Positions 36,613 to 63,723 of a stretch of DNA of 64,000 bases are shown in pieces. A program made the position numbers and the translations under genes. The notes under the pieces were generated by a model. That model did not search any database. It saw nothing but the letters and a program-made list of their open reading frames with translations, and was not told the DNA's origin. Position 1 is the first letter of the stretch; each line of letters opens with the position of its first letter. This DNA comes from an uncultured Sphingomonadaceae bacterium (GTDB lineage: Bacteria; Pseudomonadota; Alphaproteobacteria; Sphingomonadales; Sphingomonadaceae): positions 1 to 64,000 of the forward strand of contig CANLSQ010000004.1 in assembly GCA_947493955.1 (NCBI GenBank), in the 5' to 3' direction.

Positions 36613-36843
36613 CTTGTTTCTCCCCTCCACGACGATGCTTTTTTGCATCTGTTACGCGATTTAAACCGGCGAACATCAAATGTTGGATTTCGCCGCAATC
36701 CTGAATGAGAAGCTAATAATCCCGTTTTCAAAAGATACTCTCAGAATTGTTATGATCGTTTGAATTGATATTATGGCATGCAGGACAATGTGATCTGCTG
36801 CAGTGAATGGCAGGCAAATTCAGTGCGAGAGAGGAGCAAAATT

Positions 36844-38163
36844 TTGACAAGAGAGCATTCCGATGCACCTTTTTGGATGGCAGGGAACTTTGCGCCGGTC
36901 GAAGAAACTGTCGAGACAGTCAATCTGCAGATAACCGGCGAAATCCCAAAAGAGCTGAACGGAAGATATCTGCGCAACGGACCGAATCCGCGTGCGCACC
37001 CAAGCGCCGACTGGTTCCTAGGCGAGGGGATGATCCACGGCGTCAAAATCAGTGACGGCAAAGCCCATTGGTATCGCAATCGCTATGTCCAAACGCCCCT
37101 TTTGGATTTCGAAAAGATCACCAATGAGAACAGACTTGTAAGAGGAAACTCCCTCGCAAACACCCATGTCGTGGGACATGCGGACAAGATATTGGCGCTT
37201 CAAGAAACGCAGATTCCCATCGAAATGTCTGATGATTTGGAAACCATCGGTCCATATGATTTTGACGGAAAATTGGCAGGCAATATGACGGCTCACCCCA
37301 AAATTTGTCCCAAAACTGGAGAAATGCTGTTTTTTGGCTATGGGATAATGCCTCCGTTTTTGACCTATTACCGTGTCTCGCCCAGCGGTGAATTGGTCCA
37401 ATCCGAAATCATTGACGTCAAAGCAGCGACGATGGTTCATGACTTTGCAATCACGGAAAATTTCGTTCTTTTTATGGATCTGCCCATGCTTTGGGATTTA
37501 GAGAAATTGGGTAAACCGGGAATCCCGATCAGCTATGATGAAAGCTATGGTGCGCGGCTCGGCGTCATGCCGCGCACCGGCAAAAGCCAAGACGTAAAGT
37601 GGTTCGAAATTGACCCTTGCTATGTCTACCATACAATGAATGCCCATGAGTGCGGCTCGCGGGTCGTTTTTCACGCGCCCCGAATGGTTGGCTACACCTC
37701 GGTAGGAATGAAAAATCCACCGGTACCAAAGCTTCATCGGTGGATAATAGACCTTGATCAAGGCTCGGTTAAAGAAGAGCAACTGGATGACCTGGGTGTT
37801 GACTTTCCGGTGACTTCACCGCTGCTGGTCGGCCGGCCACACAAACATGGATATGCTGCAGAATTTGATACTGGTGGCGCCCCCAATATCCTTGGTTTTC
37901 ACAAGTATGATATGGAGACAGGAGCGCGCACTTGCCATCGTCTCAAAGATGGGCGGTTAGGAAGCGAGGCCATCTTCGTCCCTGCCGACAATCCAGGCAG
38001 CGAGGATGACGGGTATCTGATGGCCTTTGTTTTCGATCCCACCGAACATCTGAGCGAGTTGGTCATCCTCAACGCGGCGGAAATGTCTGATGAGCCAATC
38101 GCGCGAATACATTTGCAGGCGCGTGTACCTGCCGGTTTTCATGGCAGTTGGATTGGTGATTAG
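36844..38163 (+). CDS. Second carotenoid/lignostilbene oxygenase (RPE65 family)
   Basis: The frame is open from an ATG at 36778, but GAGGAG at 36831-36836 places the likely start at the TTG at 36844 (LTREHSDAPFWMAGNFAPVE), 439 residues. The four iron-ligand histidines are in MTAHPKICPKTGEM, TMVHDFAITENFVLF, YVYHTMNAHECGS and GFHGSWIGD. NGRYLRNGPNPR is a family N-terminal signature. Divergent from the TonB receptor; it is a distant relative, not a close copy, of the enzyme at 30298, so it probably has another substrate preference. Confidence 0.92.
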   Translation: MTREHSDAPFWMAGNFAPVEETVETVNLQITGEIPKELNGRYLRNGPNPRAHPSADWFLGEGMIHGVKISDGKAHWYRNRYVQTPLLDFEKITNENRLVRGNSLANTHVVGHADKILALQETQIPIEMSDDLETIGPYDFDGKLAGNMTAHPKICPKTGEMLFFGYGIMPPFLTYYRVSPSGELVQSEIIDVKAATMVHDFAITENFVLFMDLPMLWDLEKLGKPGIPISYDESYGARLGVMPRTGKSQDVKWFEIDPCYVYHTMNAHECGSRVVFHAPRMVGYTSVGMKNPPVPKLHRWIIDLDQGSVKEEQLDDLGVDFPVTSPLLVGRPHKHGYAAEFDTGGAPNILGFHKYDMETGARTCHRLKDGRLGSEAIFVPADNPGSEDDGYLMAFVFDPTEHLSELVILNAAEMSDEPIARIHLQARVPAGFHGSWIGD

Positions 38164-40108: not shown

Positions 40109-43039
40109 CTAGAAACCAACTTTGGCGCCAAGCCTCCAAATCCGACCCAATGGGTTACCCGTAAATGGGTTGTAACCCAGCGGTGTGCGTGCATCTGGCG
40201 CATCTGCATCGGTGAAATTCTCGACCGAGAATTGCAGCTGTGCATCGAAAGCGTTGATTGGCAAGTCATATGCCAGATGAATGTCATGTTGAGTGAAGCT
40301 GGAAATATTCTCTCCAAAAAACGTTGTGCCAAAGTTCGGAACAACCTCAAAATTAGGTGTTTCCGCATAACGTTCATCGCGAACACCATCGACATATTTC
40401 ACACCATAACGTGCATTAAACCCACTGATGTTGAAGTTGACATATGCATTGCCTCTCCACGGAGCAATGGTCCCCGGATTGCGATCGAGATTAGCCAAGC
40501 CGACCGCACTGAACCCGGCGCGCAAAAAGTTGCCGTCGAGAGTGAAATCGCCAACATCATAAGTCAAAATATGGCTGGCATTCGCACCTAAGGTCAGAAC
40601 GCCATTGCCGATATCAGTTGTGTAGCTTGCCGCAAAATCCAATCCGGTTGTTTTGGTTTTTGGACCATTGACCCATTGGCTGAACACACGAGAGATATTC
40701 AAACCTGTCGTAGTGCCCTGAACACAAGCGCCACCGTCAAACGTAATCAAATCTACAAACGGACTTGAACAATCAGCAAGGCCGCCGGGAACTGGAACAA
40801 CACTGCTGGCAATGGCTTGGCCATCAGTCGTGGTGATTTCGTCTTTGAAATCAAAGCTCCAATAGTCCACCGAGAAGTTAAAGCCTCCAAAGTCGACAAT
40901 AGCACCGGCATTATAGGTGAAGGCCGTTTCTGGACCGAGATCATCCGGATTGCCAAAAATATCGACCGCCTTGAAGTTACCAGCTGCGGCCGCAAGTCCC
41001 GCGAGGGATGTCACGCCAGCGACAGATACCTGAGATGCAAGAGGTGCGCGGAAGGTTGTACCAACGGACCCGCGAAGCACTAACCAATCTGTAGGCTCCC
41101 AACGTATCGAGCCTTTCGGATTGAAAGTGGAACCAATGGAACCACCATAATCCTCGAAACGAGCTGCTGCGGTGATTTCAAGCGTATCGCTAATCGGAAC
41201 GGCAACTTCTGCAAAGACCGCTTTGACATCCTGTGTAAGGTCAATGTTTCTCTGGCCGCCAAGGAAAATAAAGGAACCGGCACCCTGAAGCGCAGGGTCA
41301 CAATCCTGCTGCCCCAAAATTGGGCAAGGATTCAAATCCAGGTTACCGAATGAATTGAGCGGCTTGTTGTTAAACCGGGTTTTACGATATTGCGCACCAG
41401 CTGCCCAACCGATCGCGCCGCCGCCAAGATCTAGTCCCAGTTCACCGGAAAAAATCAAGTCTGCGACGACCGTATCCTCGCTTTGATCGTTACCATTTTC
41501 TTCGGTAAGCCAATCGACAAGCGCTGGGCTATTTTCAGCTCCGGGAACATAGAAGGGATTGTCGAGATCCAGCGCTGGATTACGCGGTCCTGCGTTGGAA
41601 AACGGGTTGAACCACAAGCATCCGGGCGACCCTGGCGTAACGCCGTTACAATCCGGACCACCAAGACCGTTCAATGCTGACTGCAATCTGGAACCCACGA
41701 TACCAGGCGAACCGCCGCGACGATCATAGTTCATCATCGTGAGCGAGAATTGCCCTCGGAACGTATCCGAAAAATCCTTTTCGAAAGTACCGGAGAAGCG
41801 ATAGGCTTTACTGTTCACAAACTGGCGCCCCGATCCTCTTGTCTCGTCGAGTGGATTTCCCAACCAACCAAATGGCCGCCAGAGGAAAATGCCAATGGCA
41901 GCGGGCGTCCCAGTCAGACCGTTTTGCGCCACAAAGGGTGCAACGCCTGGGTTATCTGGGGATACCGTAAAGCCGCCGCCTAGTTGCGCTCCGCCTGGCC
42001 CCTGAAGAGGTGGATAGCCGGGAGAAGTGCGGATGAAGTCAAGATCGGTTTGCGCATAGGTAAATTCACCACGAAACCGGAAAGTATCGGACAGGTCTAC
42101 ATCCGCTTGAATATAGCCTTGATAACGATCTGTATCTTCGACAAGATTGTCAAACGGAATAAAGCTAAACCGGCAAAGTACACCATCTGGAACGCCTCCA
42201 AGCTCGCCACAGCCTCTGTCGGGCTGCAGCGCGACACCCGGAGCGATGGGAACTGCACCTCCCGCTCCAACGACGGTAAATGTACCCGGCGTGGCCAGGG
42301 CAGACCATGCTGCTGGATTCACTTCATAGGGTTGAGATGCGTAATCACGTTCGGTCGTAGGTAATTCCGAACGATGCTGCCAGCCGAAGCCAGCCAAGAT
42401 GTTCACATCGCCAAATGTTTTACCGACCAATATCGAAGCGGTATAATTATCATCGGAACCATTGACGAACTCATAGTCGCTTTTGATTTCGACACCTTCA
42501 AAACCCTTTTTGGTGATGAAGTTGGCCACACCAGCAATAGCGTCGGAACCATAAGTAGCCGCCGCGCCATCTTTTAGAATTTCAATCCGTTCAAGCGCGA
42601 AAAGAGGAACAGCATTTGTATCACCAAAACCGCCACCGACGGCGCCCGGTGCGGTAAATGTCCTTCTGCCGTTAAACAGCACCAGAGTACGTTGCGGACC
42701 CAAACCGCGCAGGTTGATGGAGCCTAGTCCCTGATTGCCTTGAGCGGTCGTAGAAAATTGATTGGTGTCGCCGAGGACGCTGCCGACTTGAGGCAGATCC
42801 TTGATAAATTCAAGTGGGGAGGAAACACCTGCGGTATCCAAATCTGCCGAAGAGAACACATCCACCGGTTGCGCTGCATCTTCAGGCGTGCCGCGAATGA
42901 AGCTGCCTGTTACGACGATGATATTTTCGTCATTATCCGCTTCTTGCAAGTCCTGTGCATGAGCCATATTCGGTGCGACCGTGGCCGAAAATACGACCGC
43001 GCTAAGCGCACTTGTGCAACGCAAGAGTGTTTTATTCAT
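40109..43039 (-). CDS. Large TonB-dependent receptor
   Basis: The frame is open from 43159, but ATG 43039 (MNKTLLRCTSALSAVVFSAT) with GGGAGGGAAA upstream starts the signal peptide, giving 976 residues. NIIVVTGSFIRGTPEDAAQPV is the TonB-box/plug start; SINLRGLGPQRTLVLFNGRR, ERIEILKDGAAATYGSDAIAGV are plug signatures of the large sphingomonad/caulobacter receptor class. The barrel ends in LGAKVGF. It precedes exported enzymes on the same strand side and faces two operator-like half-sites (TTTGACTAAT type) upstream. Substrate unknown. Confidence 0.93.
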   Translation of the reverse strand: MNKTLLRCTSALSAVVFSATVAPNMAHAQDLQEADNDENIIVVTGSFIRGTPEDAAQPVDVFSSADLDTAGVSSPLEFIKDLPQVGSVLGDTNQFSTTAQGNQGLGSINLRGLGPQRTLVLFNGRRTFTAPGAVGGGFGDTNAVPLFALERIEILKDGAAATYGSDAIAGVANFITKKGFEGVEIKSDYEFVNGSDDNYTASILVGKTFGDVNILAGFGWQHRSELPTTERDYASQPYEVNPAAWSALATPGTFTVVGAGGAVPIAPGVALQPDRGCGELGGVPDGVLCRFSFIPFDNLVEDTDRYQGYIQADVDLSDTFRFRGEFTYAQTDLDFIRTSPGYPPLQGPGGAQLGGGFTVSPDNPGVAPFVAQNGLTGTPAAIGIFLWRPFGWLGNPLDETRGSGRQFVNSKAYRFSGTFEKDFSDTFRGQFSLTMMNYDRRGGSPGIVGSRLQSALNGLGGPDCNGVTPGSPGCLWFNPFSNAGPRNPALDLDNPFYVPGAENSPALVDWLTEENGNDQSEDTVVADLIFSGELGLDLGGGAIGWAAGAQYRKTRFNNKPLNSFGNLDLNPCPILGQQDCDPALQGAGSFIFLGGQRNIDLTQDVKAVFAEVAVPISDTLEITAAARFEDYGGSIGSTFNPKGSIRWEPTDWLVLRGSVGTTFRAPLASQVSVAGVTSLAGLAAAAGNFKAVDIFGNPDDLGPETAFTYNAGAIVDFGGFNFSVDYWSFDFKDEITTTDGQAIASSVVPVPGGLADCSSPFVDLITFDGGACVQGTTTGLNISRVFSQWVNGPKTKTTGLDFAASYTTDIGNGVLTLGANASHILTYDVGDFTLDGNFLRAGFSAVGLANLDRNPGTIAPWRGNAYVNFNISGFNARYGVKYVDGVRDERYAETPNFEVVPNFGTTFFGENISSFTQHDIHLAYDLPINAFDAQLQFSVENFTDADAPDARTPLGYNPFTGNPLGRIWRLGAKVGF

Positions 43040-43186
43040 GATGTTTCCCTCCCAAAAATTCCGGAAATCAAACCATGATAATTTGATTCCAGCGCCCTCT
43101 TTGAGGCGATAAATTTTCTCTCCAAGACGAAGAGTGAATGTAATTAGACCATTAGTCAAATAGTAATTGACGAAGCATCAAATTAG

Positions 43187-44560
43187 TCATCTGGCTGAGA
43201 AATTCGAAATTGCGGTCTCGGCCGGTGACGGTCTTCTATTTCTTTTGTCAGCTATATTTTGTACCGCGCGGAACACACGGAGAAAGTTTTCGCCCCAAAT
43301 TTTTCTAATCTGCTCAGCTGAATAACCGCGTTTTACCAGGGCGATGGTGACGTTCTCCGCCTCACTTGCATCCACAAATCCGGCAACGCCGCCGCCATGA
43401 TTAAAGTCGCTGCCAATTCCGACATGATCGATACCCACACGGTTTACGATATAGTCAATATGATCAACCAATCGATCAACAGAACCCGGACCGATCACCC
43501 TCCGCATCGCAATCAGAAACGACTGACGTTTTTCGGGATCAGGGATCTCCCAATAGAGTTCGTAAGGGTAAGAATAGGCATCGGGCAATCCGGCATCGCG
43601 TCGGACTTTCAGAATGGCAGCCAATAATTTGGGATCCGAAAGATCGACAAGATAGGCACCAAATGCCGCGAGATGGATAACGCCTCCGGTTTTCGCAATG
43701 AGATCGATTTCTTCATCGGACAGATTGCGCGACACATTGGATAATTTGCGCGCGTTAGAGTGGCTGGCGATGACGGGAGATCGAGATAATTTTGTCGCCT
43801 GCAAAGTCGCTGCCTTCGACATTTGCGAAACGTCGATTATTCCCCCAAGCGCATTGATACGCCGTACCGCCGCCACCCCCAAAGGTGACAAGCCGCCATG
43901 CTCTTCGGCGATTTCATAAGACCGCCTCTCGGCAATATATAGAGGACGCGAACTGTCTGAAAAATCATTATGTCCCAAATGGTTGAGGCCGAATAGACGA
44001 ACTCCGGCGGCGTAATATTGATCCAGGGCATCAACCTGACCATCGAGTGATCGGGCATTCTGGAAGCCCAGTAAAATAACGGTCTTTCCGCTGGCGGTCA
44101 GACTTTTGATCTCAGCTGGCGATGTCGCCAGGCCCAGATTCGGGTCTTGTTGCACCATGTTGGAAACCGCTGCCAGTTTTTCATCGGCCTCGGCTCTCGC
44201 CAAGGCGCGACCGTCTGTTGTTCTGGAGCCGGGGCCCACGGCGACCGACATGATGACAGCATCCACGCCCCCCGCTCGCAACTTGGCTGGAGCGACCTTG
44301 GATAGTCCATCGGCCCCCAGATAGGTTTTGGAAGTGGATGGCAGAACTATATCCGCATGCGCATCCAGCACCAGACTCTGTTGATGGATTTCTCTCGCCC
44401 TTTCGACAAGAGCGGCCTCGATTTCTGGAGCAGCAGATGCAGTGACTGATTCTGTTTGAGCAGCTGCACAAGCCGATAGCAATACAGCTGAAACGAAAAA
44501 CATCGTGCCGCGAAGCACAGGTTGAAAGTGACTTGAGAGTTTCGCCGACAGTTTTTGCAT
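43187..44560 (-). CDS. Membrane dipeptidase (M19) lipoprotein
   Basis: The frame is open from 44602, but ATG 44560 (MQKLSAKLSSHFQ) follows GGAGA, giving 457 residues with a signal peptide and LSAC lipobox. SLVLDAHADIVLPS carries the first zinc His-x-Asp of M19 enzymes; ASHSNARKLS, GIGSDFNHGG and a central Glu region are also present. M19 enzymes hydrolyse dipeptides, sometimes D-amino-acid or beta-lactam containing ones. The ATG lies 4 bp past the stop of the upstream hydrolase gene (44565), so both share a transcript. Confidence 0.88.
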   Translation of the reverse strand: MQKLSAKLSSHFQPVLRGTMFFVSAVLLSACAAAQTESVTASAAPEIEAALVERAREIHQQSLVLDAHADIVLPSTSKTYLGADGLSKVAPAKLRAGGVDAVIMSVAVGPGSRTTDGRALARAEADEKLAAVSNMVQQDPNLGLATSPAEIKSLTASGKTVILLGFQNARSLDGQVDALDQYYAAGVRLFGLNHLGHNDFSDSSRPLYIAERRSYEIAEEHGGLSPLGVAAVRRINALGGIIDVSQMSKAATLQATKLSRSPVIASHSNARKLSNVSRNLSDEEIDLIAKTGGVIHLAAFGAYLVDLSDPKLLAAILKVRRDAGLPDAYSYPYELYWEIPDPEKRQSFLIAMRRVIGPGSVDRLVDHIDYIVNRVGIDHVGIGSDFNHGGGVAGFVDASEAENVTIALVKRGYSAEQIRKIWGENFLRVFRAVQNIADKRNRRPSPAETAISNFSAR

Positions 44561-44564
44561 TGGT

Positions 44565-45599
44565 CTATTCTCCAAGAAAGTCGATGATCGCTTTAGTCGC
44601 ACGCTCCGGTCGTTCCATCGACGTCCAATGATTGATTCCTTTTAACCGAACTGTTCGCATGTCCGGCCCGGTATCATCGACTTGATCAATAAGTTCAGGC
44701 ACGAAAACCTGATCCTCTTCACCCCAGATAAACAGAGCGGGCACAGTGATTTTCGCTTCGGGTCCAGGCCAGAGATCGGAATCTGAAACATTGTCAAACG
44801 GTGGAATATTGGCCCGGTACCAATTCATCGCCGCATAAAGCATTTCGTTGCTCGACAAGGCGTTTTGGAACAATTTCAATTCTTCCCGGGACAGGTCACC
44901 GCGTTCACCGAGTTTCCTGTAGGCTGAAACCCGCGCTGACTCGATCGCATTGCCGGACTTGAGCATTTCCAAAGTCGTGCCCCGAAATCTCTGCATATAT
45001 TGGTTTCGGCGTTGTTGCTCTTTGTTATTCGCCGCATATTTGAGGAACAGGTTAAGCGGAGGGGCGCTCATGCCCACGACTTTATGCAGGCGATCAGGAT
45101 AAGCTTGTGCATAGGATAGAGCGAGAACCGAGCCCCAGTCATGGCCGATCAATATATATTTCTCGTCACCGCCGAGATGGCGGGACAGCGCATCCAATTG
45201 GGACGCCAGTTTGGTTATGTCATAAGGTTCCAATTGATGCGGCTTAGCGGACAGGCCGGAACCTAGAGCGTCCAACGCTACAACCCGGTACTGGCCTTTC
45301 AGTGCCTCCATCTGATCAAACCAGCTATACCAGAAAGATGGAAATCCATGGTAAAAAATGACCAATGGTCCCTCGCCTGCCTCAACATAATGCAAGCGGG
45401 TATCGCCGGAACCGAAATAGCCTTCCTTATACTTCGCGTCGCTTGAACCGTTGGCATTGGCGAATACCACGGCTGGATCAGGGGCAACGGAGTTCATCGC
45501 TGTGGGGGGTTCGACAGCAAGATTAGCTGACATACAGCTCGGCAGCGTGAGCAGGCCTACAAGCCCGACAAGCAAAGTCACGCTCTTCAGAAATGCCAT
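44565..45599 (-). CDS. Exported alpha/beta hydrolase, epoxide-hydrolase/dehalogenase-like
   Basis: 344 codons with a hydrophobic N-terminus (SVTLLVGLVGLLTLPSC); the Cys could be lipidated, though Pro at -2 makes the lipobox atypical. FYHGFPSFWYSW forms the oxyanion hole, IGHDWGSVLALSYA the nucleophile elbow with Asp rather than Ser, and KGINHWTSMERP the catalytic His. A nucleophilic Asp points to epoxide hydrolase or haloalkane dehalogenase chemistry. It is paralogous to the hydrolase at 62674. It is divergent from the PQQ dehydrogenase across a candidate operator. Confidence 0.88.
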   Translation of the reverse strand: MAFLKSVTLLVGLVGLLTLPSCMSANLAVEPPTAMNSVAPDPAVVFANANGSSDAKYKEGYFGSGDTRLHYVEAGEGPLVIFYHGFPSFWYSWFDQMEALKGQYRVVALDALGSGLSAKPHQLEPYDITKLASQLDALSRHLGGDEKYILIGHDWGSVLALSYAQAYPDRLHKVVGMSAPPLNLFLKYAANNKEQQRRNQYMQRFRGTTLEMLKSGNAIESARVSAYRKLGERGDLSREELKLFQNALSSNEMLYAAMNWYRANIPPFDNVSDSDLWPGPEAKITVPALFIWGEEDQVFVPELIDQVDDTGPDMRTVRLKGINHWTSMERPERATKAIIDFLGE

Positions 45600-45648
45600 T
45601 GTCTCTCCTTCGCCAGTGTCTTGGCCATTGCTTTATAAGGAAGGCTCG

Positions 45649-45670
45649 TTATTGTACTAATAGTCAACAA
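45649..45670. promoter_or_regulatory. Candidate TetR-type operator, TTATTG-N9-TCAACA
   Basis: TTATTG (45649-45654) and TCAACA (45664-45669) separated by 9 bp, within the 137-bp divergent region between the exported hydrolase and PQQ dehydrogenase genes. The same arrangement recurs at 50293 and 50540. Confidence 0.5.
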
Positions 45671-45736
45671 CAATCGGCTGCACCTGTCAAACCTTTCTTT
45701 CGGGATGCTCCAGAACCAAAGGATGCAGAAATTTTA

Positions 45737-47599
45737 ATGCGTGTTTTTTTGTCATTCACGGCAACGCTGATGTTGGCATCCGTCGGCTTATCTGGCTGTC
45801 AGCAGAAAGAGCCTGAACCTGAGATCGTAGATGCCGTGCAAGCTCAGGTGGACGGCAATCCTGGCGAAGGGCTTTACCAGAAACATTGCGCCGCATGCCA
45901 TGATGGCGGCACTGTAGAAGCGCCAACCAAAGCTGCTATCCAGTTAAATGGCGTTGAATCGATCAGGGCCTCGCTTTCTACCGGTACAATGAAAGAACAG
46001 GCGTCGATGATGACGCCGATCGAAATACGGATCATTGCCGACTATCTGGCCAGTCCAAGCAGCGAGAGCGCATTAGCCAATGCAAAAAAGCACCAGTGCA
46101 AAGGCCAGTTAAATCTCTCCAAGCCCCTTTGGAACCGGTGGGGGAACAGCAAACGCAATGTCCGTTTCCAGCCCGCTGTCAATGCCGGTATCACAGCAGC
46201 AGAAGCGCCAGATCTGAAATTGAGATGGGCCTTTGGTTTCCCAGGTTCAGCGCGCGCGCGCTCCCAACCCGCGGTCACCGCGGAAGCCATATTTACAGGG
46301 AGCCAGAGCGGACTATTTTATGCGCTGGATACCAAGACCGGCTGTGTCTGGTGGACATTTGAAGCCAAGGCAGAGGTTCGTAATGCACCGACCATATCGA
46401 CCGATAAAAATGGTTATGCGAAGACGCTCTATTTCGGGGATGTCGATGCCAATGTCTATGCTGTCGATGCCAAAAATGGAGAGTTGATTTGGACACGCTC
46501 TATCCAAGACCATCCGGTTGGAACGATAACGGGTTCGATCACGCTCCATAAAGGGCGTCTCTATGTTCCGATGTCTTCGCTTGAGATTATCAACGCCTAT
46601 CTTCCAGACTATGAATGTTGCACCTTCCGCGGCGGTGTACTGGCGTTGGCAGCGAAATCGGGTGAGCCGGTATGGCGTTTCTACACCGTTCCCGAACCCA
46701 AAAAGACAAGTAAGAACACAGCGGGCGCACAAAATTACGGACCATCGGGTGCGCCGATCTGGTCCACTCCAACTGTCGATGCCAAGCGCGGGTTGCTCTA
46801 TGTCGGGACGGGAGAGAATTATTCCTCGCCCGCCAATGACAAGAGCGATGCCATCATTGCATTGCGGCTTGATACAGGAGCGGTTGAGTGGATTCAGCAG
46901 ACCATTTCGGGCGATGCCTGGAACGCTGCTTGTGGGCGAAACGGATCGCAGGTCAATTGCCCGCAGGAAGACGGCCCAGACTTTGATTTTGGCGCACCTC
47001 CGATTTTAACGACTCTGGCCAATGGCAAGGACATTATTCTGGCAGGCCAGAAATCAGGAATGCTCTTCGGTATGGACCCGGATGCAGGCGGGAAAATCCT
47101 TTGGGAAACACGTGCTGGAATGGGCGGTTTTAATGGCGGCGTCCATTGGGGGATGGCAACCGACAGCAAGACACTGTTTGTTGGTATTGCCGATACTCCC
47201 GGCAACCGGTTTGCCACGGGCCCTTCACGTCAAGGCTTGCACGGATATGACCCCGCAACGGGTAAAGCTTTGTGGAGCAAATTTGAACCCAATGTCTGTG
47301 AAGAAAAAGCGCATAAATGCATGACCGCACTGTCTGCCCCGCCAACCATCACGTCAGACGTCGTTTTCGCCGGCGCACTCAATGGCATATTGCGTGCCTA
47401 TAGTGCCGATGGAGGCGAGATATTGTGGAGCACCGACACACGCAGGGAATATAAAACTCTGAATGACGTTAGCGCGCGTGGTGGCTCGATAGATTCCGCA
47501 GGCCCTGTCGTCGCAGGCGGCCTGCTTATCGTCAACAGCGGCTATGACAAATTCGGACAGATACCCGGCAATGTGATGCTAGTTTACAGCGCTGATTGA
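45737..47599 (+). CDS. Cytochrome c-PQQ dehydrogenase, polyvinyl-alcohol-dehydrogenase-like lipoprotein
   Basis: The frame is open from 45593, but ATG 45737 (MRVFLSFTATLMLASVGLS) starts a lipoprotein signal with LSGC, giving 620 residues. YQKHCAACHDGG (about residue 50) is a CxxCH haem site of a small N-terminal cytochrome c. A beta-propeller PQQ domain follows (FTGSQSGLFYALDTKTGCVWW; GRLYVPMSSLE; LLYVGTGENYSSP; NGKDIILAGQKSGMLFGMDPDAG). This N-terminal-haem order is that of polyvinyl alcohol dehydrogenase (cytochrome). It would oxidise a secondary or primary alcohol in the periplasm and pass electrons to the haem. Substrate not inferable. Confidence 0.9.
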   Translation: MRVFLSFTATLMLASVGLSGCQQKEPEPEIVDAVQAQVDGNPGEGLYQKHCAACHDGGTVEAPTKAAIQLNGVESIRASLSTGTMKEQASMMTPIEIRIIADYLASPSSESALANAKKHQCKGQLNLSKPLWNRWGNSKRNVRFQPAVNAGITAAEAPDLKLRWAFGFPGSARARSQPAVTAEAIFTGSQSGLFYALDTKTGCVWWTFEAKAEVRNAPTISTDKNGYAKTLYFGDVDANVYAVDAKNGELIWTRSIQDHPVGTITGSITLHKGRLYVPMSSLEIINAYLPDYECCTFRGGVLALAAKSGEPVWRFYTVPEPKKTSKNTAGAQNYGPSGAPIWSTPTVDAKRGLLYVGTGENYSSPANDKSDAIIALRLDTGAVEWIQQTISGDAWNAACGRNGSQVNCPQEDGPDFDFGAPPILTTLANGKDIILAGQKSGMLFGMDPDAGGKILWETRAGMGGFNGGVHWGMATDSKTLFVGIADTPGNRFATGPSRQGLHGYDPATGKALWSKFEPNVCEEKAHKCMTALSAPPTITSDVVFAGALNGILRAYSADGGEILWSTDTRREYKTLNDVSARGGSIDSAGPVVAGGLLIVNSGYDKFGQIPGNVMLVYSAD

Positions 47600-47610
47600 G
47601 GAAAAGACCA

Positions 47611-48711
47611 ATGTTCAGATCAAATATTGCTAGTCTTTGTACAGGCCTGACCGTCAGCCTTTGTCTGACATCTTGTATGCAAACCGCTGCCACTGAGTCG
47701 GCCGACACGACCACCAGTCCACCGCGCATAGTGCAAACGCCGTTTTTCCGTCCAGCAAGTCTGGGCAATACCAAAATCAAGGGCGTGCGGTTCATTGGCA
47801 AGGCGGTGTCAGACATTGATCAGAGCATCGCTTTTTATCAGCAGGCCGTACCGTTTGAATTGGTCAGTCGATATCGTGTCGCCGCCAGCGACATCTATCT
47901 TCCCGGGATGACTTCCAAACAGCATGGAAATGTAGAAGTTGCACTGATTAGAACCCCAACGGTTTTTGTTAAACTGGTTGATTTTGATCCGGACGCGAAA
48001 GCACCGCCTTATGCCAAACCGGTCATTGGCCCTGGATATACGCATATTTGTTTCCAGTCCCCGGCGACCGATCCCGCCCTACCAAAATTCCAAAAAAAGG
48101 GACTGGAAATGGTGTCACGAAATGCGCCTGTCGACTTAGGTGGCTATGGTGTCACCTACGCATATGGCCGAGATCCCGACGGCACAATCATTGAAAATGA
48201 AACCGTCGACAGGCCCCGCCGTCAAGATAGTGCGTGGATAACCCATATTGGCGGAGCGACGTCAGATGCTGATCGCATGGCCGATTTTTACACCAAGTTT
48301 ATCGGTTACGGCGCAAGACGGCGCGGTGAATATTCAAACTTTCCAAATATGGATAATATCGTCGCGATTGATGGCGTTGTCCTTCGCAGTGCATGGTTTG
48401 CTGTCCGCAATCTTGAGCTTGAATTTTGGGAGTTTGTTCAGCCGGCCACGCCGGTCCGTGATAAACCTGCCAAAGTCGACCAGATCGGTTATAATATGAC
48501 GGCATTTGAGGTCACCGACGCAGAAGCGGAGCGTGAAAGGCTGGCAAAGTTGGGCATCAAAATGGTTGGTCCGGCAAAAACCAGCAAAGGCTGGAAAATT
48601 TACTATACTTACGATCCAGACGGAAATGTGATTTCAATTCAGGAAAATGTCTCTGCACCAAAATCTGAATCGATTGACGATATGATGTGGATCGATCCAA
48701 CGACCTATTAG
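47611..48711 (+). CDS. Two-domain VOC-family lipoprotein
   Basis: The frame opens at 47596 but ATG 47611 follows GAGGAAAAG and begins a lipoprotein signal (SLCTGLTVSLCLTSC), giving 366 residues. Two vicinal-oxygen-chelate modules are visible: GVRFIGKAVSDIDQSIAFYQ with GYTHICFQSP and YAYGRDPDGTIIENE; then THIGGATSDADRMADFYTKF with YNMTAFEVTD and YTYDPDGNVISIQE. VOC folds include glyoxalases and extradiol dioxygenases, usually cytoplasmic; export as a lipoprotein is unusual. It follows the PQQ dehydrogenase gene by 11 bp. Confidence 0.85.
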   Translation: MFRSNIASLCTGLTVSLCLTSCMQTAATESADTTTSPPRIVQTPFFRPASLGNTKIKGVRFIGKAVSDIDQSIAFYQQAVPFELVSRYRVAASDIYLPGMTSKQHGNVEVALIRTPTVFVKLVDFDPDAKAPPYAKPVIGPGYTHICFQSPATDPALPKFQKKGLEMVSRNAPVDLGGYGVTYAYGRDPDGTIIENETVDRPRRQDSAWITHIGGATSDADRMADFYTKFIGYGARRRGEYSNFPNMDNIVAIDGVVLRSAWFAVRNLELEFWEFVQPATPVRDKPAKVDQIGYNMTAFEVTDAEAERERLAKLGIKMVGPAKTSKGWKIYYTYDPDGNVISIQENVSAPKSESIDDMMWIDPTTY

Positions 48712-48760
48712 GAACAGTAATTTTCTCGGCTGCCTTCGCGGTTCATCAACAAAAGATTAT

Positions 48761-49414
48761 ATGGTAGCAATTGAAACAATGAACAAAGAAACTCCCATCA
48801 AAAGACGGCGCCTTAGTCCAGAAAAGCGCAAGTCGTTGATCCTAGATCATACGGCAGAGATTGTTGCACGCGATGGTGTGGCAGTTTTAAGTATGGAACT
48901 CATTGGCAAAGAAGCGGGAATTAGTAAGTCGCTCGTCTACACTTATTTTGACAGCCTGACGGAACTTCTCCGCGCGCTCCTAAATCGCGAACTAAAGCGC
49001 TTGCGGCGATTGCAGGTACGCGAGGCAGATAAAGCGAAGACTTTCGAAGAACTGGTTCGCGGCATCACACATCAATATCTCAAATATATTGAGGAACGCG
49101 GGCTAATCATTGAACGCCTCCAAACCGAACCCAGCGTATCGGGCGGCCATGATCCTACAGACTATAGTCGCGATGATGCGGTTGATTACATTGCCGATAT
49201 TGTGGCCAATAATTTTGATATTCCAAAAGATGCAGCCAGGGCAGCAAGTGATATATCCTTTGGCCTTCCGGCGACTGCGGGGGCCTATTATCTGCACAGC
49301 GATATGAGCAGGGAAGAGATCGAAAACATCACCGTCACAATGATATTGGGTTCGTTAAATGCCGTTCAGAGTGACTATAACATGCGGCAACAACCTTTGA
49401 AGCGAAAGCCCTGA
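48761..49414 (+). CDS. TetR-family regulator (paralogue of 62023)
   Basis: 217 codons from ATG 48761 (an ATG at 48779 is also possible; neither has a strong ribosome-binding site). The helix-turn-helix is LILDHTAEIVARDGVAVLSMELIGKEAGISKSLVYTYFDSLTELLRALLNREL. The sequence KTFEELVRGITHQYLKYIEERGLIIERL in the ligand domain is nearly repeated in the regulator at 62023. It follows the VOC gene and is the best candidate for binding the TTATTG-N9-TCAATA sites nearby. Confidence 0.9.
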   Translation: MVAIETMNKETPIKRRRLSPEKRKSLILDHTAEIVARDGVAVLSMELIGKEAGISKSLVYTYFDSLTELLRALLNRELKRLRRLQVREADKAKTFEELVRGITHQYLKYIEERGLIIERLQTEPSVSGGHDPTDYSRDDAVDYIADIVANNFDIPKDAARAASDISFGLPATAGAYYLHSDMSREEIENITVTMILGSLNAVQSDYNMRQQPLKRKP

Positions 49415-49448
49415 AATCTTTTGCTAATGCCGGGATCCGACGGACGGA

Positions 49449-50204
49449 CTACAGCGGGTGGATGGAATGACCTCCATCGATGACCAGTGATTGACCAGTC
49501 ATGAAGTTACTTTGCTGGGACGCCAGATAGACGGCGATACCCTCCATGTCTTCCAATTCCCCAACCTTTCCGGAAGCAGATCGGCGCTTACATGCATCCC
49601 GGAATATTTGCGGCGTGTTTAGCGACATGTCCGTTTCAATATATCCTGGCAGGATCGCGTTAACTTGAATATTTGCCTGCCCTAGTTCGATTGCCAGAGC
49701 ACGCGTTAAACCGGTGACTGCCGCCTTGGTGGTTGAATAACCACTCCCCATTGGCATACCCATTATTGCAGCAGCAGAAGAGGTTACGATCAACTTTCCG
49801 CCCTGCCCACGTTCCAGAAGATGAGCGATGACCGGTTTATAGGTGTTCACTACGCTGGTAAGGTTCATATCCACCGTCGCCGTCCACGCTTCCCCGCTCG
49901 TCTTGTGCAACATGCCCGCAGACCCACCGCCTGCATTGGCAAAACAGCTATCCACTTTTTGAAAGCGTTGCAGCGTTGCACCAAAGGCGGCATCGACTTG
50001 CTCGGCATCAGTGACATCACAAGAAAACACCGCTGCATCGCCACCCATATCGTGCAGTTCCTTCAATGCTGCTTCATTTTTTTCCGGATTACGACCCCAG
50101 ATTGCAACAGCGGCACCGGCTTTGACCAATCCTTTGGCCATCGCCAAACCCAGGCCGCCATTGCCGCCCGTCACCAGAGCGACATGGCCGGTTAAATCGA
50201 ACAT
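49449..50204 (-). CDS. Short-chain dehydrogenase/reductase (SDR)
   Basis: The frame is open from 50237, but ATG 50204 (MFDLTGHVALVTGGNGGLGL) follows AAGGA, giving 251 residues. The cofactor loop TGGNGGLGLAMAKG, the NAG motif (FANAGGGSAG), catalytic Ser and YSTTKAA, and the C-terminal PGYIETDMS are classical SDR features, FabG-like. It oxidises or reduces an alcohol/ketone using NAD(P). It is cytoplasmic, unlike its neighbours, and is divergent from the exported GST across two candidate operators. Confidence 0.92.
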   Translation of the reverse strand: MFDLTGHVALVTGGNGGLGLAMAKGLVKAGAAVAIWGRNPEKNEAALKELHDMGGDAAVFSCDVTDAEQVDAAFGATLQRFQKVDSCFANAGGGSAGMLHKTSGEAWTATVDMNLTSVVNTYKPVIAHLLERGQGGKLIVTSSAAAIMGMPMGSGYSTTKAAVTGLTRALAIELGQANIQVNAILPGYIETDMSLNTPQIFRDACKRRSASGKVGELEDMEGIAVYLASQQSNFMTGQSLVIDGGHSIHPL

Positions 50205-50292
50205 AAAATCTATCCTTACGATGAATTGGCAGAACACCTAATCGCCTCGTGAGCGAGTGGCCAACAAAACGAAGTATTGCGTCACTTCATAG

Positions 50293-50314
50293 TTATTGGA
50301 ATTAAAGTCAATAG
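50293..50314. promoter_or_regulatory. Candidate TetR-type operator near SDR start
   Basis: TTATTG (50293-50298), nine bases, TCAATAG (50308-50314). It lies 89 bp upstream of the SDR ATG and matches the site at 50540 at 17 of 22 positions when one is reverse-complemented. Confidence 0.55.
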
Positions 50315-50539
50315 TGATATTACTGATCGATAGATAAGGCATGCCTCGTCGAGATACCCAAGTGCACAAAACCATGCCCTAAACCATATCTTCTCAACAC
50401 GGTTACGGACGACGTATCGTTAAAAGCCGGAACCGCCTGAGTTTATGCAAACCAAAAATCAAAAGATCGAGGCACACGGATGCGCGGTGGCTGGAACGTT
50501 GGCTGATCTTCAAGATAGTCCATGCCCAATCCAACAAGA

Positions 50540-50561
50540 TTATTGACTATATTTTCAATAG
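50540..50561. promoter_or_regulatory. Candidate TetR-type operator near GST start
   Basis: TTATTG (50540-50545), nine bases, TCAATAG (50555-50561), 38 bp before the GST start. The rest of 50205-50599 holds no gene; it is the divergent promoter region of the SDR and GST genes. Confidence 0.6.
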
Positions 50562-50599
50562 AAGCTTAAATAATGGCAGCTTTAGGATGGGGGCATAAG

Positions 50600-51433
50600 A
50601 TGTTTGGTTTAGAGACGAAAATTGTTCGTTCGATAGGTGCAAGCTTGCTGGCAATTGGCCTAGCCGCTAGCCAGACTGGGGCAAGTGCTTCAACGCCTTC
50701 AGAAAATGAGGGCGAAATAGCCACAGCTACCCCGGCACCAGATATTACAATCTATCATCTTGAAGGCCGTCGGTCAGAGCGGATCATATGGTTGATGGAA
50801 GAATTGGGCCTGCCTTATGAGCTAAAATATGTTCGCGGTGACCTGATGGCATCTATGATGCAGATTCGCGCCCTCGGTCACGGCATGCCCATGGCACCAA
50901 CGGTCGTCTATGGCGATGATATCATCGTAGAGTCGGGTGCTATTATTGATACCATCCTATCCCGGCATGCGCCTGGTAAACTCGTTCCTCCAATCGATAG
51001 CCGGGCTTATCCGCACCATATCAAATGGATGCATTATGCTGAAGGGTCACTGGCCGCTCGTTTGTTCAGTGATTATCGCGCTTGGCGTGTCAATCCGCCC
51101 ACGCAGCGATCTATGTTGGTCGACAGTGAAAATGTTGTGCAATATTCCGAGGATTATCTGAAAGAAAATCCATGGTTTGGTGGTCCCGAATTTTCAGCCG
51201 CCGATATCATGATGGATTGGCCACTTAACGTCGCGTTTAAGCTGAATTTGGTTGATTCAGCACAGTTCCCCAATATTCAGGCATGGCAAAAGCGAATTCA
51301 AGCCCGCCCAGCCTATGCCCGGATGCGCGCAATAGCTACGCCCGATGGAGTGATAGGCGCGTTGCCACCAGTGAAACACCCGCCATCAAACAGCCGAGCG
51401 ACTTCGCTACCTGGCGCCAAGCCAAAAGAATAA
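50600..51433 (+). CDS. Exported glutathione S-transferase-like protein
   Basis: Open from 50573; ATG 50600 has AGGATGGGGG upstream, giving 277 residues. Residues 1-35 form a signal peptide (SIGASLLAIGLAASQTGASA), absent from ordinary GSTs. A thioredoxin-fold N-domain (DITIYHLEGRRSERIIWLME; GMPMAPTVVYGDDIIVESGAI) and an all-helical C-domain (PWFGGPEFSAADIMMDWPLN) follow. Export of a GST implies periplasmic chemistry or binding, though glutathione supply there is uncertain. A C-terminal Ser/Pro tail is not conserved in the family. Confidence 0.85.
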   Translation: MFGLETKIVRSIGASLLAIGLAASQTGASASTPSENEGEIATATPAPDITIYHLEGRRSERIIWLMEELGLPYELKYVRGDLMASMMQIRALGHGMPMAPTVVYGDDIIVESGAIIDTILSRHAPGKLVPPIDSRAYPHHIKWMHYAEGSLAARLFSDYRAWRVNPPTQRSMLVDSENVVQYSEDYLKENPWFGGPEFSAADIMMDWPLNVAFKLNLVDSAQFPNIQAWQKRIQARPAYARMRAIATPDGVIGALPPVKHPPSNSRATSLPGAKPKE

Positions 51434-62022: not shown

Positions 62023-62652
62023 ATGGAACAATTAGCACAGAAAACAAAACGGAGATTTAGCCCGGAAGTCCGGCGTTCCATGATACTTGATAGCGCAGCA
62101 GAGCTGATTTCCACAAGCGGGATGTCCAAAGTTTCGATGGAAGCCATTGGCCAGAAAGCGGATGTCAGCAAATCGTTGATGTACAAGTATTTTGATAGCC
62201 TCTCTCACCTTTTGAAAGAGCTGTTGAAACGTGAACTAACGATCCGGTGGAAACGTCAAGTCGCTGTGGCGGAAAAAGCCACTACTTTTGAAGAACTGGT
62301 TCGTGGCACAACGCATGTCTATCTCAGCTTTATCGCGGAGCGCGGACTTATTATAGAGCCTCTGCTTGCTGACCCTTCCATTGCGAAACTTTATCATCCA
62401 GCTCGTTACAATCGCGAAGTTGCGGTAAAATATTTTTCTGACTTGGTGGTCAAAAATTTTGATATGCCGCCAGAGATTGCCCTAGCGGTGACCGATATAT
62501 CCCTGGGCATACCTGCCGCAGCCGGAGAATTTCTGCTGCGCAGTGATATGGATCTGCAGGAATTGGAAGACGTAACGGTTTCCATGATGATCGGAACTTA
62601 CACGATGGCTCGCTTCGACTATTTCACACGAAAGAAAAAACTCGAGAGATAG
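62023..62652 (+). CDS. TetR-family regulator (paralogue of 48761)
   Basis: 209 codons. The helix-turn-helix is RRSMILDSAAELISTSGMSKVSMEAIGQKADVSKSLMYKYFDSLSHLL. The ligand domain TTFEELVRGTTHVYLSFIAERGLIIEPL is nearly the same as in the regulator at 48761. It is convergent with the paralogous hydrolase at 62674, so the regulator-hydrolase pair has been duplicated. Target operators were not identified on this side. Confidence 0.9.
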   Translation: MEQLAQKTKRRFSPEVRRSMILDSAAELISTSGMSKVSMEAIGQKADVSKSLMYKYFDSLSHLLKELLKRELTIRWKRQVAVAEKATTFEELVRGTTHVYLSFIAERGLIIEPLLADPSIAKLYHPARYNREVAVKYFSDLVVKNFDMPPEIALAVTDISLGIPAAAGEFLLRSDMDLQELEDVTVSMMIGTYTMARFDYFTRKKKLER

Positions 62653-62673: not shown

Positions 62674-63723
62674 CTATTTTTGGTGCCTTTCAGATATCAA
62701 TTTCTTTATCGCCCGAGTAACTGTCTCGGTTCTTTCTACATGAGGCCAATGTCCGACATCTGTCAGCGAAAGTATCTGCATATCATCTGAGCCAGCTTTT
62801 GTTGCCTCAGCATATTCTTTGGCAAAGACTCGATCATCCTGCCCCCAGATAATTTGCGCTGGCACGGTCACGCGCGTCTTTTGATCAGGCCAGAAATCGG
62901 CATCCTCAATGGCGCCGAAAGATGGAATATTGGCTCGGTACCAGTTGATATGCGCATCTATCCGTTTGGGATTGCCGGTGGCTTCACGGAACAGTTCTCC
63001 TTCCTCCGGGGTGAGAAAGCCCTTTTTGATCAAGGGTTCATAGGCACCCGTCCAAACCCTTTTGTCACCGCCCAATACCTTGATGAGCAATGGATTGGCC
63101 TGCTTCAAACGATCAATATAGGCTGAGGTCTGCCTGAGTGAGCTATCGCGCTGCATCAGCCCTAGCAGTACATTTTGCGGTGGTGCACTCAATCCCGTTA
63201 CGCTGGCCACGCGATCCGGATAGCGTTGGGCAAAACCAAACGCGAAAGTCGAGCCCCAGTCGTGACCGACAATATGCACTTTTTCAGCATCCAGATGATC
63301 AATCAGGGCATTGAGATGAGCCGCCATGTTTTCCAGCCTATATGCATCTACATCGTGAGGCGCATCCGATTTGCCTGCGCCCAGCCCATCAATAGCAACA
63401 ACGTGATAATCCTGCTTCAATGCATCCATTTGCCGGATGAAGGAAAACCAATAGGACGGGAATCCATGTAAAAAGAGGATAAGCTCCCCCTCGCCGGCCT
63501 CGACATAATGCAATGTGTGATCACCATACGCGAAATAGGAACTGGAATAAGGGACGCCTGTGCCAGTCATATTGCTGTGCATAACCGCCTGGTCCGGTTC
63601 GGAAACATCGACAGAGACGGGTATCTTCATCCATATCACAGCGAAGAAGGCCAGCATCAAAAAACCAGCGATCAGGAAAAGGGTAACCCGCCTGAGCTTT
63701 TGTGCAGTTCGTCCCAAAATCAC
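62674..63723 (-). CDS. Membrane-anchored alpha/beta hydrolase, epoxide-hydrolase/dehalogenase-like
   Basis: 349 codons from GTG 63723; a TTG at 63717 sits six bases after GGGAGG and is the more likely start. An N-terminal membrane anchor (VTLFLIAGFLMLAFFAVIW) is followed by LHYVEAGEGELILFLHGFPSYWFSF (oxyanion region), VGHDWGSTFAFGFA (nucleophilic Asp) and LTDVGHWPHVERTE (catalytic His). It is clearly paralogous to the hydrolase at 44565 over the full domain (APHxV/KPHQLE region, APPQN/APPLN, INWYRANIPSF). It is probably cotranscribed with the upstream TonB receptor, unless the terminator between them is efficient. Confidence 0.88.
   Translation of the reverse strand: MILGRTAQKLRRVTLFLIAGFLMLAFFAVIWMKIPVSVDVSEPDQAVMHSNMTGTGVPYSSSYFAYGDHTLHYVEAGEGELILFLHGFPSYWFSFIRQMDALKQDYHVVAIDGLGAGKSDAPHDVDAYRLENMAAHLNALIDHLDAEKVHIVGHDWGSTFAFGFAQRYPDRVASVTGLSAPPQNVLLGLMQRDSSLRQTSAYIDRLKQANPLLIKVLGGDKRVWTGAYEPLIKKGFLTPEEGELFREATGNPKRIDAHINWYRANIPSFGAIEDADFWPDQKTRVTVPAQIIWGQDDRVFAKEYAEATKAGSDDMQILSLTDVGHWPHVERTETVTRAIKKLISERHQK

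Follow-up and report, generated by a model that had tools for sequence, protein, structure and literature searches.

The gene cluster at positions 40109–51433 of the window (the whole 64,000-nucleotide stretch analysed, C4:1–64000, from a contig of the 3.4-Mb genome of an uncultured Sphingomonadaceae bacterium) raises the question of whether the export signals on its enzymes mark a catabolic pathway located in the cell envelope. The cluster encodes a TonB-dependent receptor, an M19-family protein, an alpha/beta hydrolase of epoxide-hydrolase type, a cytochrome c-pyrroloquinoline quinone (PQQ) dehydrogenase, a two-domain VOC protein, a TetR-family regulator, a short-chain dehydrogenase/reductase (SDR1) and a glutathione S-transferase (GST; Table 1). 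Related loci fall into two kinds, one with a signal-bearing VOC (exported) and one with a signal-less VOC (cytosolic), and the best reading, a probable though not a secure one, is that a single catabolic pathway is held either as an envelope cassette or as a cytosolic cassette.

A preliminary description made from the window alone had placed nearly every enzyme of the cluster outside the cytoplasm, and the gene positions it gave were all recovered. Export signals were called with a home-made rule (positive n-region, hydrophobic core and lipobox) that sorts proteins into the classes LIPO, SEC and none. Six of the 46 called genes in the window are LIPO, among them a run of four neighbouring genes, those for M19, the hydrolase, the PQQ dehydrogenase and the VOC, each with the lipobox after an n- and h-region expected of a bacterial lipoprotein. 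The lipoboxes on M19 (LSAC), the PQQ dehydrogenase (LSGC) and the VOC (LTSC) had been described as such; the hydrolase, credited with an exported N-terminus (LPSC), is itself a lipoprotein candidate with an unusual proline in that motif, and the signal of the GST (MFGLETKIVRSIGASLLAIGLAASQTGASA) is of the Sec type. The statement that only the SDR is cytoplasmic overlooked the TetR regulator (48761–49414). Lipoproteins in Escherichia coli are sorted by the residue after the cysteine (the Lol rule); none of the four LIPO candidates of the cluster has an aspartate there, so that by this rule all four would go to the outer membrane.

It is very improbable that the signal calls are artefacts of start choice or of the rule and that the enzymes are cytoplasmic. 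The calls do rest on a home-made rule, which the hydrolases of L028 and of a twin cluster at the end of the window and the M19 protein of L029 fail (loci are numbered L, genomes G). Yet LIPO was called in none of the 110 control rows (0/49 TetR and 0/61 SDR) and in 92 of 6600 shuffled VOC N-termini (1.4%), with SEC in 3/110 TetR and SDR rows and 3/17 MFS rows; the signal-bearing extension is present in 40 VOC rows and absent in 18, and PQQ dehydrogenases of known kind act in the periplasm.

These 58 VOC rows remain after the removal of three near or exact duplicates (L026, L046, the same as L117, and L086, the same as L029), with the match G085:C14 (L021) left out of the table. The script called 32 LIPO, 7 SEC and 19 none; the L110 VOC (SEC, at an internal Met) was reassigned by eye to cytosolic, while the L090 VOC (reading MSAC) and the L038 VOC (true start inside a longer frame) were reassigned to exported, giving 40 exported rows (38 by script, two by eye). 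Export signals recur across genera on unrelated N-terminal sequences. Ten of the signal-less VOCs start no more than 3 residues from the first strand, another five have a Met at that place, and the last three carry leaders of 12–15 residues. Homologues without the N-terminal extension had been named in the preliminary description as evidence that would speak against it; such homologues do exist, in 18 of the 58 rows, and their loci differ consistently in other respects.

The differences concern the genes around the VOC, counted within 8 kb of it (within 3.6 kb for a second SDR). A PQQ dehydrogenase, in either a PQQc or a membrane form, accompanies the VOC in 37/40 exported loci vs 0/18 cytosolic loci. 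A GPH-type MFS importer is found in 1/40 vs 13/18, in a search with six references (all from cytosolic loci apart from one near the exported locus L026) that unrelated importers in exported loci would escape. A second SDR occurs in 0/40 vs 15/18 by script (17/18 by reading), and the nearest hydrolase bears a signal in 27/29 vs 0/15, the exceptions being those of L028, in which LPSC is present and a Lys lost, and of the twin cluster. As export accompanies the PQQ dehydrogenase, without the importer or the second SDR, the context adds meaning to the signals. The cleanest cytosolic order, receptor-SDR1-MFS-VOC-hydrolase-SDR, is found in L107, L112 and L117, and L050 has the same gene set in a different order plus a GST; by Pfam and NCBIfam profiles, the additional genes of L107 and L116 are SDRs and the L107 importer is MFS_2/GPH. 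At L113, 411 bases remain at one side of the locus. An unlabelled open reading frame of L036 (5567–6850) resembles, by eye, another MFS protein. Both kinds occur within a single genus code, g53 (cytosolic in G029; exported in G052, G055, G070 and G073).

In the hydrolase, HGFP, HDWG, Tyr201, Tyr261, Asp296 and His324 are invariant in 20/20 aligned rows, and alignment to 5ng7 finds the epoxide-hydrolase residue set complete (H84-P87, the nucleophile D154, H324, D296, Y201 and Y261), from which epoxide hydrolysis is predicted; two hydrolase rows, L110_5839 (25%) and L111_17558 (22%), are probably other hydrolases. The window PQQ dehydrogenase has an N-terminal haem c followed by a PQQ propeller with a vicinal Cys pair, as in PVADH-like quinohaemoproteins, and CxxCH and CCxFRG occur in 19/19 rows of the PQQc type. 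A metal site of the VOC (site A; His145, Glu195, His212 and Glu271) is complete in 38/40 exported and 17/18 cytosolic rows, with H145, E195 and E271 in 40/40 exported rows and H212 in 38/40 (Q in two). The exported VOC has the metal site expected of glyoxalase I (H, E/Q, H and E from two modules), and H-E-H-E is the ligand scheme of E. coli GlxI; against NCBIfam lactoylglutathione lyase TIGR00068, it scores 42.6 bits (cut-off, 120) and is therefore termed glyoxalase-I-like, not GlxI. An AlphaFold2 model of moderate quality (mean pLDDT 65.7, pTM 0.69, 7 sequences) is closest to maize glyoxalase I.

The VOC also has a second potential site (site B; positions 61, 121, 296 and 342), which reads HEHE in 8/18 cytosolic and 0/40 exported rows, so that two complete H-E-H-E sites are present in the cytosolic VOCs of L050, L100, L107–L109 and L114–L116 and the exported VOCs keep one. 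In type I extradiol dioxygenases, the H-H-E ligands all lie in the C-terminal domain. None of the 40 exported rows has H or E at position 296 or 342, and a route of extradiol cleavage followed by a meta-cleavage hydrolase was rejected for the exported kind, the VOC being without the triad and the hydrolase having an Asp nucleophile. A third lipoprotein VOC paralogue, with no PQQ dehydrogenase within 8 kb, was observed in L088 (8935–10005), L091 (9256–10311) and L097 (7208–8335).

Taken as an envelope pathway, the cluster could work as follows. The receptor would admit a hydrophobic substrate into the periplasm, where the epoxide-hydrolase-like lipoprotein would yield a hydroxyl product by opening an epoxide or related bond, and the PQQ dehydrogenase would convert a hydroxyl to a carbonyl, with cytochrome c as electron acceptor for the PQQc form and the membrane quinone pool for the membrane form of the twin cluster. 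The VOC lipoprotein may then catalyse a metal-dependent proton-transfer step of the glyoxalase-I or epimerase type, after which the product would enter the cell and be processed further by the cytoplasmic SDR1. A related backbone (SDR1, TetR and often a receptor) would be combined in some relatives with a cytosolic cassette of GPH-type importer, signal-less VOC and hydrolase, and second SDR, the last plausibly an NAD-dependent counterpart of the external PQQ dehydrogenase, and the cassettes would have been swapped around the backbone more than once. Of the pathway proposed in the preliminary description, oxidation and hydrolysis in the envelope find support in the conserved signals and in matched loci without them, and conjugation finds weak support, the exported GST lying next to the cluster only in the window and L026–L028.

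Gene trees bear on whether such swaps occurred. A single exported clade was rejected in the trees of SDR1 (37 rows, 30 exported and seven cytosolic; p 0.0015 with a minimum of 4 changes, or p 0.0085 with a minimum of 2 when L110 and L111 are left out), TetR (40 rows, 34 exported and six cytosolic; p 0.0003; fewest changes, 3) and the hydrolase (p 0.0076; fewest changes, 3), in which the f5 exported hydrolases lie apart from the main exported group, together with a cytosolic hydrolase. The conflict of the SDR1 and TetR trees with compartment indicates, on these trees, two or more changes of the cassette that accompanies the backbone, though transfer of a backbone gene alone may also account for the conflict. 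The groups used in the clade tests were named after a first view of the loci, and since the trees are unrooted, gain and loss of export are indistinguishable. A fuller form of the reading, in which two interchangeable compartment versions replaced each other repeatedly around a regulator and SDR backbone, hydrolase export was gained or lost more than once and scavenged PQQ runs the envelope version, is put forward tentatively and falls just short of an even call.

The source of the PQQ matters to this form. PqqC was not found in any of the 25 exported-type genomes searched, a search that the genomes of the named collection fall outside; PqqC matches occurred in 2/60 genomes (G310 and G417, the latter carrying a cytosolic locus). 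The window genome gave no matches for PqqD or PqqC (PqqB and PqqF were not searched) and for PqqE only a 51-bit match below the cut-off, in a search that found matches in 14/14 controls. The PQQ importer PqqU is described, in the part of the account available, as largely absent from Alphaproteobacteria (PMC12124388). A role of the receptor as a PQQ importer is unlikely where receptors 62% identical serve the exported L035 and the cytosolic L107, which is without any PQQ enzyme. The window receptor is 85–97% identical in L026–L029 and 29–31% identical, over 150–181 residues, to five receptors of other loci; it may import the substrate.

Several results weigh against a single pathway in two compartments. 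SDR1 is present in only 7/18 cytosolic loci (L048, L050, L107, L110, L111, L112 and L117) vs 33/40 exported loci, a count by reading, as the script scored nine by including the distant SDRs of L031 (34%) and L032 (32%) through their own reference. A close TetR occurs in 6/18 cytosolic loci, all six among the SDR1 carriers, and the other 11 are without either, so that only some of the cytosolic loci share the backbone. Among the exported loci, 11/40 have no hydrolase and 3/40 no PQQ dehydrogenase within 8 kb. The VOC tree does not reject a single exported clade (p 0.19; fewest changes, 2) and, if the exported VOCs are one clade, the table of locus kinds reflects few historical events. The absence of PqqC matches implies that the PQQ must come from outside. 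The places of the extradiol triad (His212, His296 and Glu342) are filled in 8/18 cytosolic and 0/40 exported VOCs, so that the chemistry of the two kinds may differ. Finally, in seven cross-kind pairs the VOCs are 29–34% identical, the hydrolases 27–39% and the receptors 30–62%, as against 64–72% for SDR1 and 57–62% for TetR; in one such pair from a single genus code (cytosolic L050 and exported L044), identities are 72% for SDR1, 61% for TetR, 43% for the receptor, 32% for the VOC and 27% for the hydrolase.

These identities would also be expected if the two kinds were different pathways with a common regulator and SDR, and sometimes a common receptor, their cassettes being distant paralogues that act on different compounds and were exchanged, with no relocation of any enzyme. 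The cytosolic VOC would then perhaps be a ring-cleaving dioxygenase; extradiol ring cleavage may occur in the eight triad-bearing cytosolic VOCs, and a Rieske oxygenase lies near L031. The grouping of the f5 exported hydrolases with a cytosolic hydrolase fits the same explanation. However, site A is complete in both kinds, both repeatedly include a two-domain VOC, a hydrolase of epoxide-hydrolase type and a dehydrogenase, and a move between compartments would call for just such a switch of dehydrogenase and importer. Different pathways are accordingly considered a serious possibility, albeit not a probable one. The presence of both locus kinds in related genomes, with importer and redox partner switching together with the signals, makes testable what cells gain by an external pathway (no import cost, protection from toxic carbonyls and electrons delivered straight into respiration) and what they lose (dependence on outside PQQ, and leakage). 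The exported glyoxalase-like and epoxide-hydrolase lipoproteins are enzymes worth assaying.

The remaining genes of the window cluster, for M19 and the GST, are peripheral. The lipobox of the M19 protein holds, though its description as a dipeptidase is doubtful, as the MENSW and DVSHAS of chain 2rag correspond in it to FQNARSL and DVSQMS. GFQNAR and DVSQM occur in 5/5 readable rows, including the window (L029 is unreadable from the start used). The metal-ligand Glu and His expected of a membrane dipeptidase, as in renal dipeptidase, are lacking, and without these residues of 2rag the protein may not be a dipeptidase and possibly represents a non-peptidase M19 branch of the envelope. M19 was found in the window, L026–L030 and L089 (and L086, the duplicate of L029). 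A glutathione pathway built from the GST, the VOC and a Cys-Gly dipeptidase was rejected: neither M19 nor the exported GST is core, both being confined to close relatives, and M19 looks altered. Signal-less GSTs occur within 8 kb in L050, L090, L100 and L101. Among four GST relatives elsewhere, L125 and L126 have Sec-type signals and L128 none, and the relative in L127 (1465–2388) has a Tat-like N-terminus (SRRGVLG), which suggests that exported GSTs may form a small family in these bacteria.

The solved chain closest to the window M19 is 3b40 (E 2.3e-69), taken here as Pseudomonas aeruginosa PvdM; it has the same QMS change. A part in the periplasmic oxidation of ferribactin is ascribed to PvdM in the portions of the reports seen (PMC6206403, PMC13119372), and the resemblance would suit an envelope system for tailoring or detoxification, one that modifies a secreted metabolite or an envelope molecule, as in periplasmic pyoverdine maturation, and is not catabolic. 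Such a system is quite unlikely here, as M19 is confined to close relatives of the window, the labelled neighbours include no biosynthetic gene set, and the TonB receptor, TetR, SDR and GPH importers fit uptake. Unlike the PvdM-like proteins, the window M19 is a lipoprotein candidate, and no pyoverdine locus is among the labelled neighbours.

Periplasmic catabolism is itself already known. The pva pathway of Sphingopyxis sp. 113P3 for polyvinyl alcohol (PVA) includes a periplasmic PVADH quinohaemoprotein, a periplasmic oxidized-PVA hydrolase and a cytochrome c (PMC4611681, as far as seen), and, as is proposed for the window cluster, a sphingomonad here pairs a PQQ dehydrogenase with an exported hydrolase in its envelope. 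A 113P3 plasmid encodes a PQQ protein 36% identical to the window PQQ dehydrogenase, with the N-terminal haem motif and CCxFRG common to both, and a plug/receptor-like protein beside this PVADH-like gene is identical to the window receptor at 167/347 residues (48%). The hydrolase-like protein beside the plasmid gene, however, does not align with the window hydrolase, and no VOC is annotated there. As the named pva operon is chromosomal in the same partly seen source (PMC4611681), the gene on the plasmid possibly encodes a paralogue of the PVADH that was studied. The plasmid locus (L129, 4012–12999) has the hydrolase-like protein, exported by eye, upstream of the PQQ gene, together with an MFS protein, a cytochrome c and the adjoining receptor-like protein.

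In the Pseudomonas carbaryl pathway, an N-terminal signal puts a hydrolase in the periplasm and keeps toxic 1-naphthol from the cytoplasm (PMC11302072), as the signals of the window cluster would do for a catabolic hydrolase; the part of that account available describes one signal-bearing hydrolase and a signal-less hydroxylase and mentions neither a PQQ dehydrogenase nor a matched cytosolic locus kind. Cif, like the window hydrolase, is an exported Asp-nucleophile epoxide hydrolase, and the Cif-like chain 7jqx is among the matches. The Cif subclass is described, in the part seen, as having a His in place of one Tyr (PMC8244358), whereas the window hydrolase has Tyr at both positions (Tyr201 and Tyr261) and is a lipoprotein candidate in a catabolic-type locus. 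The maize two-domain glyoxalase I has two VOC domains and H-E-H-E, as does the window VOC, whose model has its best fold match there (6bnn, E 1.5e-15, TM 0.64 on target); unlike it, the window VOC, 19% identical, is a lipoprotein candidate and is set among genes of uptake and PQQ-oxidation type. No published description of this locus was found in the literature titles and abstracts searched, a coverage that most subscription journals fall outside.

Across the genomes compared, the core of the locus consists of the VOC, the epoxide-hydrolase-like enzyme and the PQQ dehydrogenase, usually with the receptor, TetR and SDR. Within 8 kb of the 40 exported VOCs, a hydrolase is present at 29. A search with the single VOC protein (E 1e-20) found it in 17/296 genomes of the order, and VOC profile A1 (E 1e-40) in 27/397 genomes of the family, 4/385 of the class and 2/398 of the phylum, with the own genome included throughout and with overlapping draws. 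The named genome collection supplied seven loci, of which two are gammaproteobacterial. A VOC of Sphingorhabdus sp. EL138 is 99% identical to that of the window.

In the window, the genes for the hydrolase, M19 and the receptor diverge from those for the PQQ dehydrogenase, VOC and TetR at a 137-base spacer, with SDR1 and the GST following, and the likely starts of the PQQ dehydrogenase and M19 lie inside the longest open reading frames. No operator palindrome of at least 8 bases was found in five divergent spacers. The twin cluster runs past the end of the window (Table 1). Its SDR2 is 66% identical to SDR1, and its PQQ dehydrogenase matches nearly the full profile of TIGR03074 at 814.4 bits (curated cut-off, 832.65); membership is not assigned, and the enzyme is predicted from this match to work like a membrane PQQ dehydrogenase. 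In G127 (L040) and G252 (L039), the PQQc-type and membrane-PQQ modules are fused, with one receptor, one TetR and one SDR1.

Table 1. Features of the cluster and of its twin on contig C4 (positions in the window unless stated).
Feature	Position	Strand	Profiles, structures and remarks
TonB-dependent receptor, Sec signal	40109..43042	-	Pfam PF00593, PF07715
M19-family protein, lipoprotein candidate, LSAC, perhaps no true dipeptidase	43187..44560	-	PF01244
Exported alpha/beta hydrolase, epoxide-hydrolase type, LPSC	44565..45599	-	Closest solved chains 5ng7, 4o08
Cytochrome c-PQQ dehydrogenase, lipoprotein candidate, LSGC, PVADH-like domain order	45737..47599	+	PF13442 then PF01011/PF13360
Two-domain VOC, lipoprotein candidate, LTSC, glyoxalase-I-like	47611..48711	+	PF00903, two stretches
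TetR-family regulator, related to TetRs of exported and six cytosolic loci	48761..49414	+	PF00440
SDR1, cytoplasmic, related to SDRs of exported and seven cytosolic loci	49449..50207	-	PF13561
GST, Sec-type signal, peripheral	50597..51433	+	PF13417, PF00043
TetR of twin cluster	62023..62652	+	
Second epoxide-hydrolase-like enzyme (EH2), N-terminal signal anchor by eye, not called by script	62674..63723	-	
Rest of twin cluster: receptor, lipoprotein VOC2 (LTAC), SDR2, 822-aa membrane PQQ dehydrogenase	63825-70803 (contig C4)		Beyond window

In L027 (164–1206), a hydrolase of the second type is present in two frames upstream of the receptor and is perhaps a decayed gene. Elsewhere in the window, by eye, are an outer-membrane protein resembling a two-partner secretion transporter (1110–2750), a repetitive surface protein of 2667 residues (10031–18034) and, upstream of the cluster and near an aldehyde dehydrogenase and another TonB receptor, two look-alikes of carotenoid/lignostilbene oxygenases (30298–31740 and 36778–38163).

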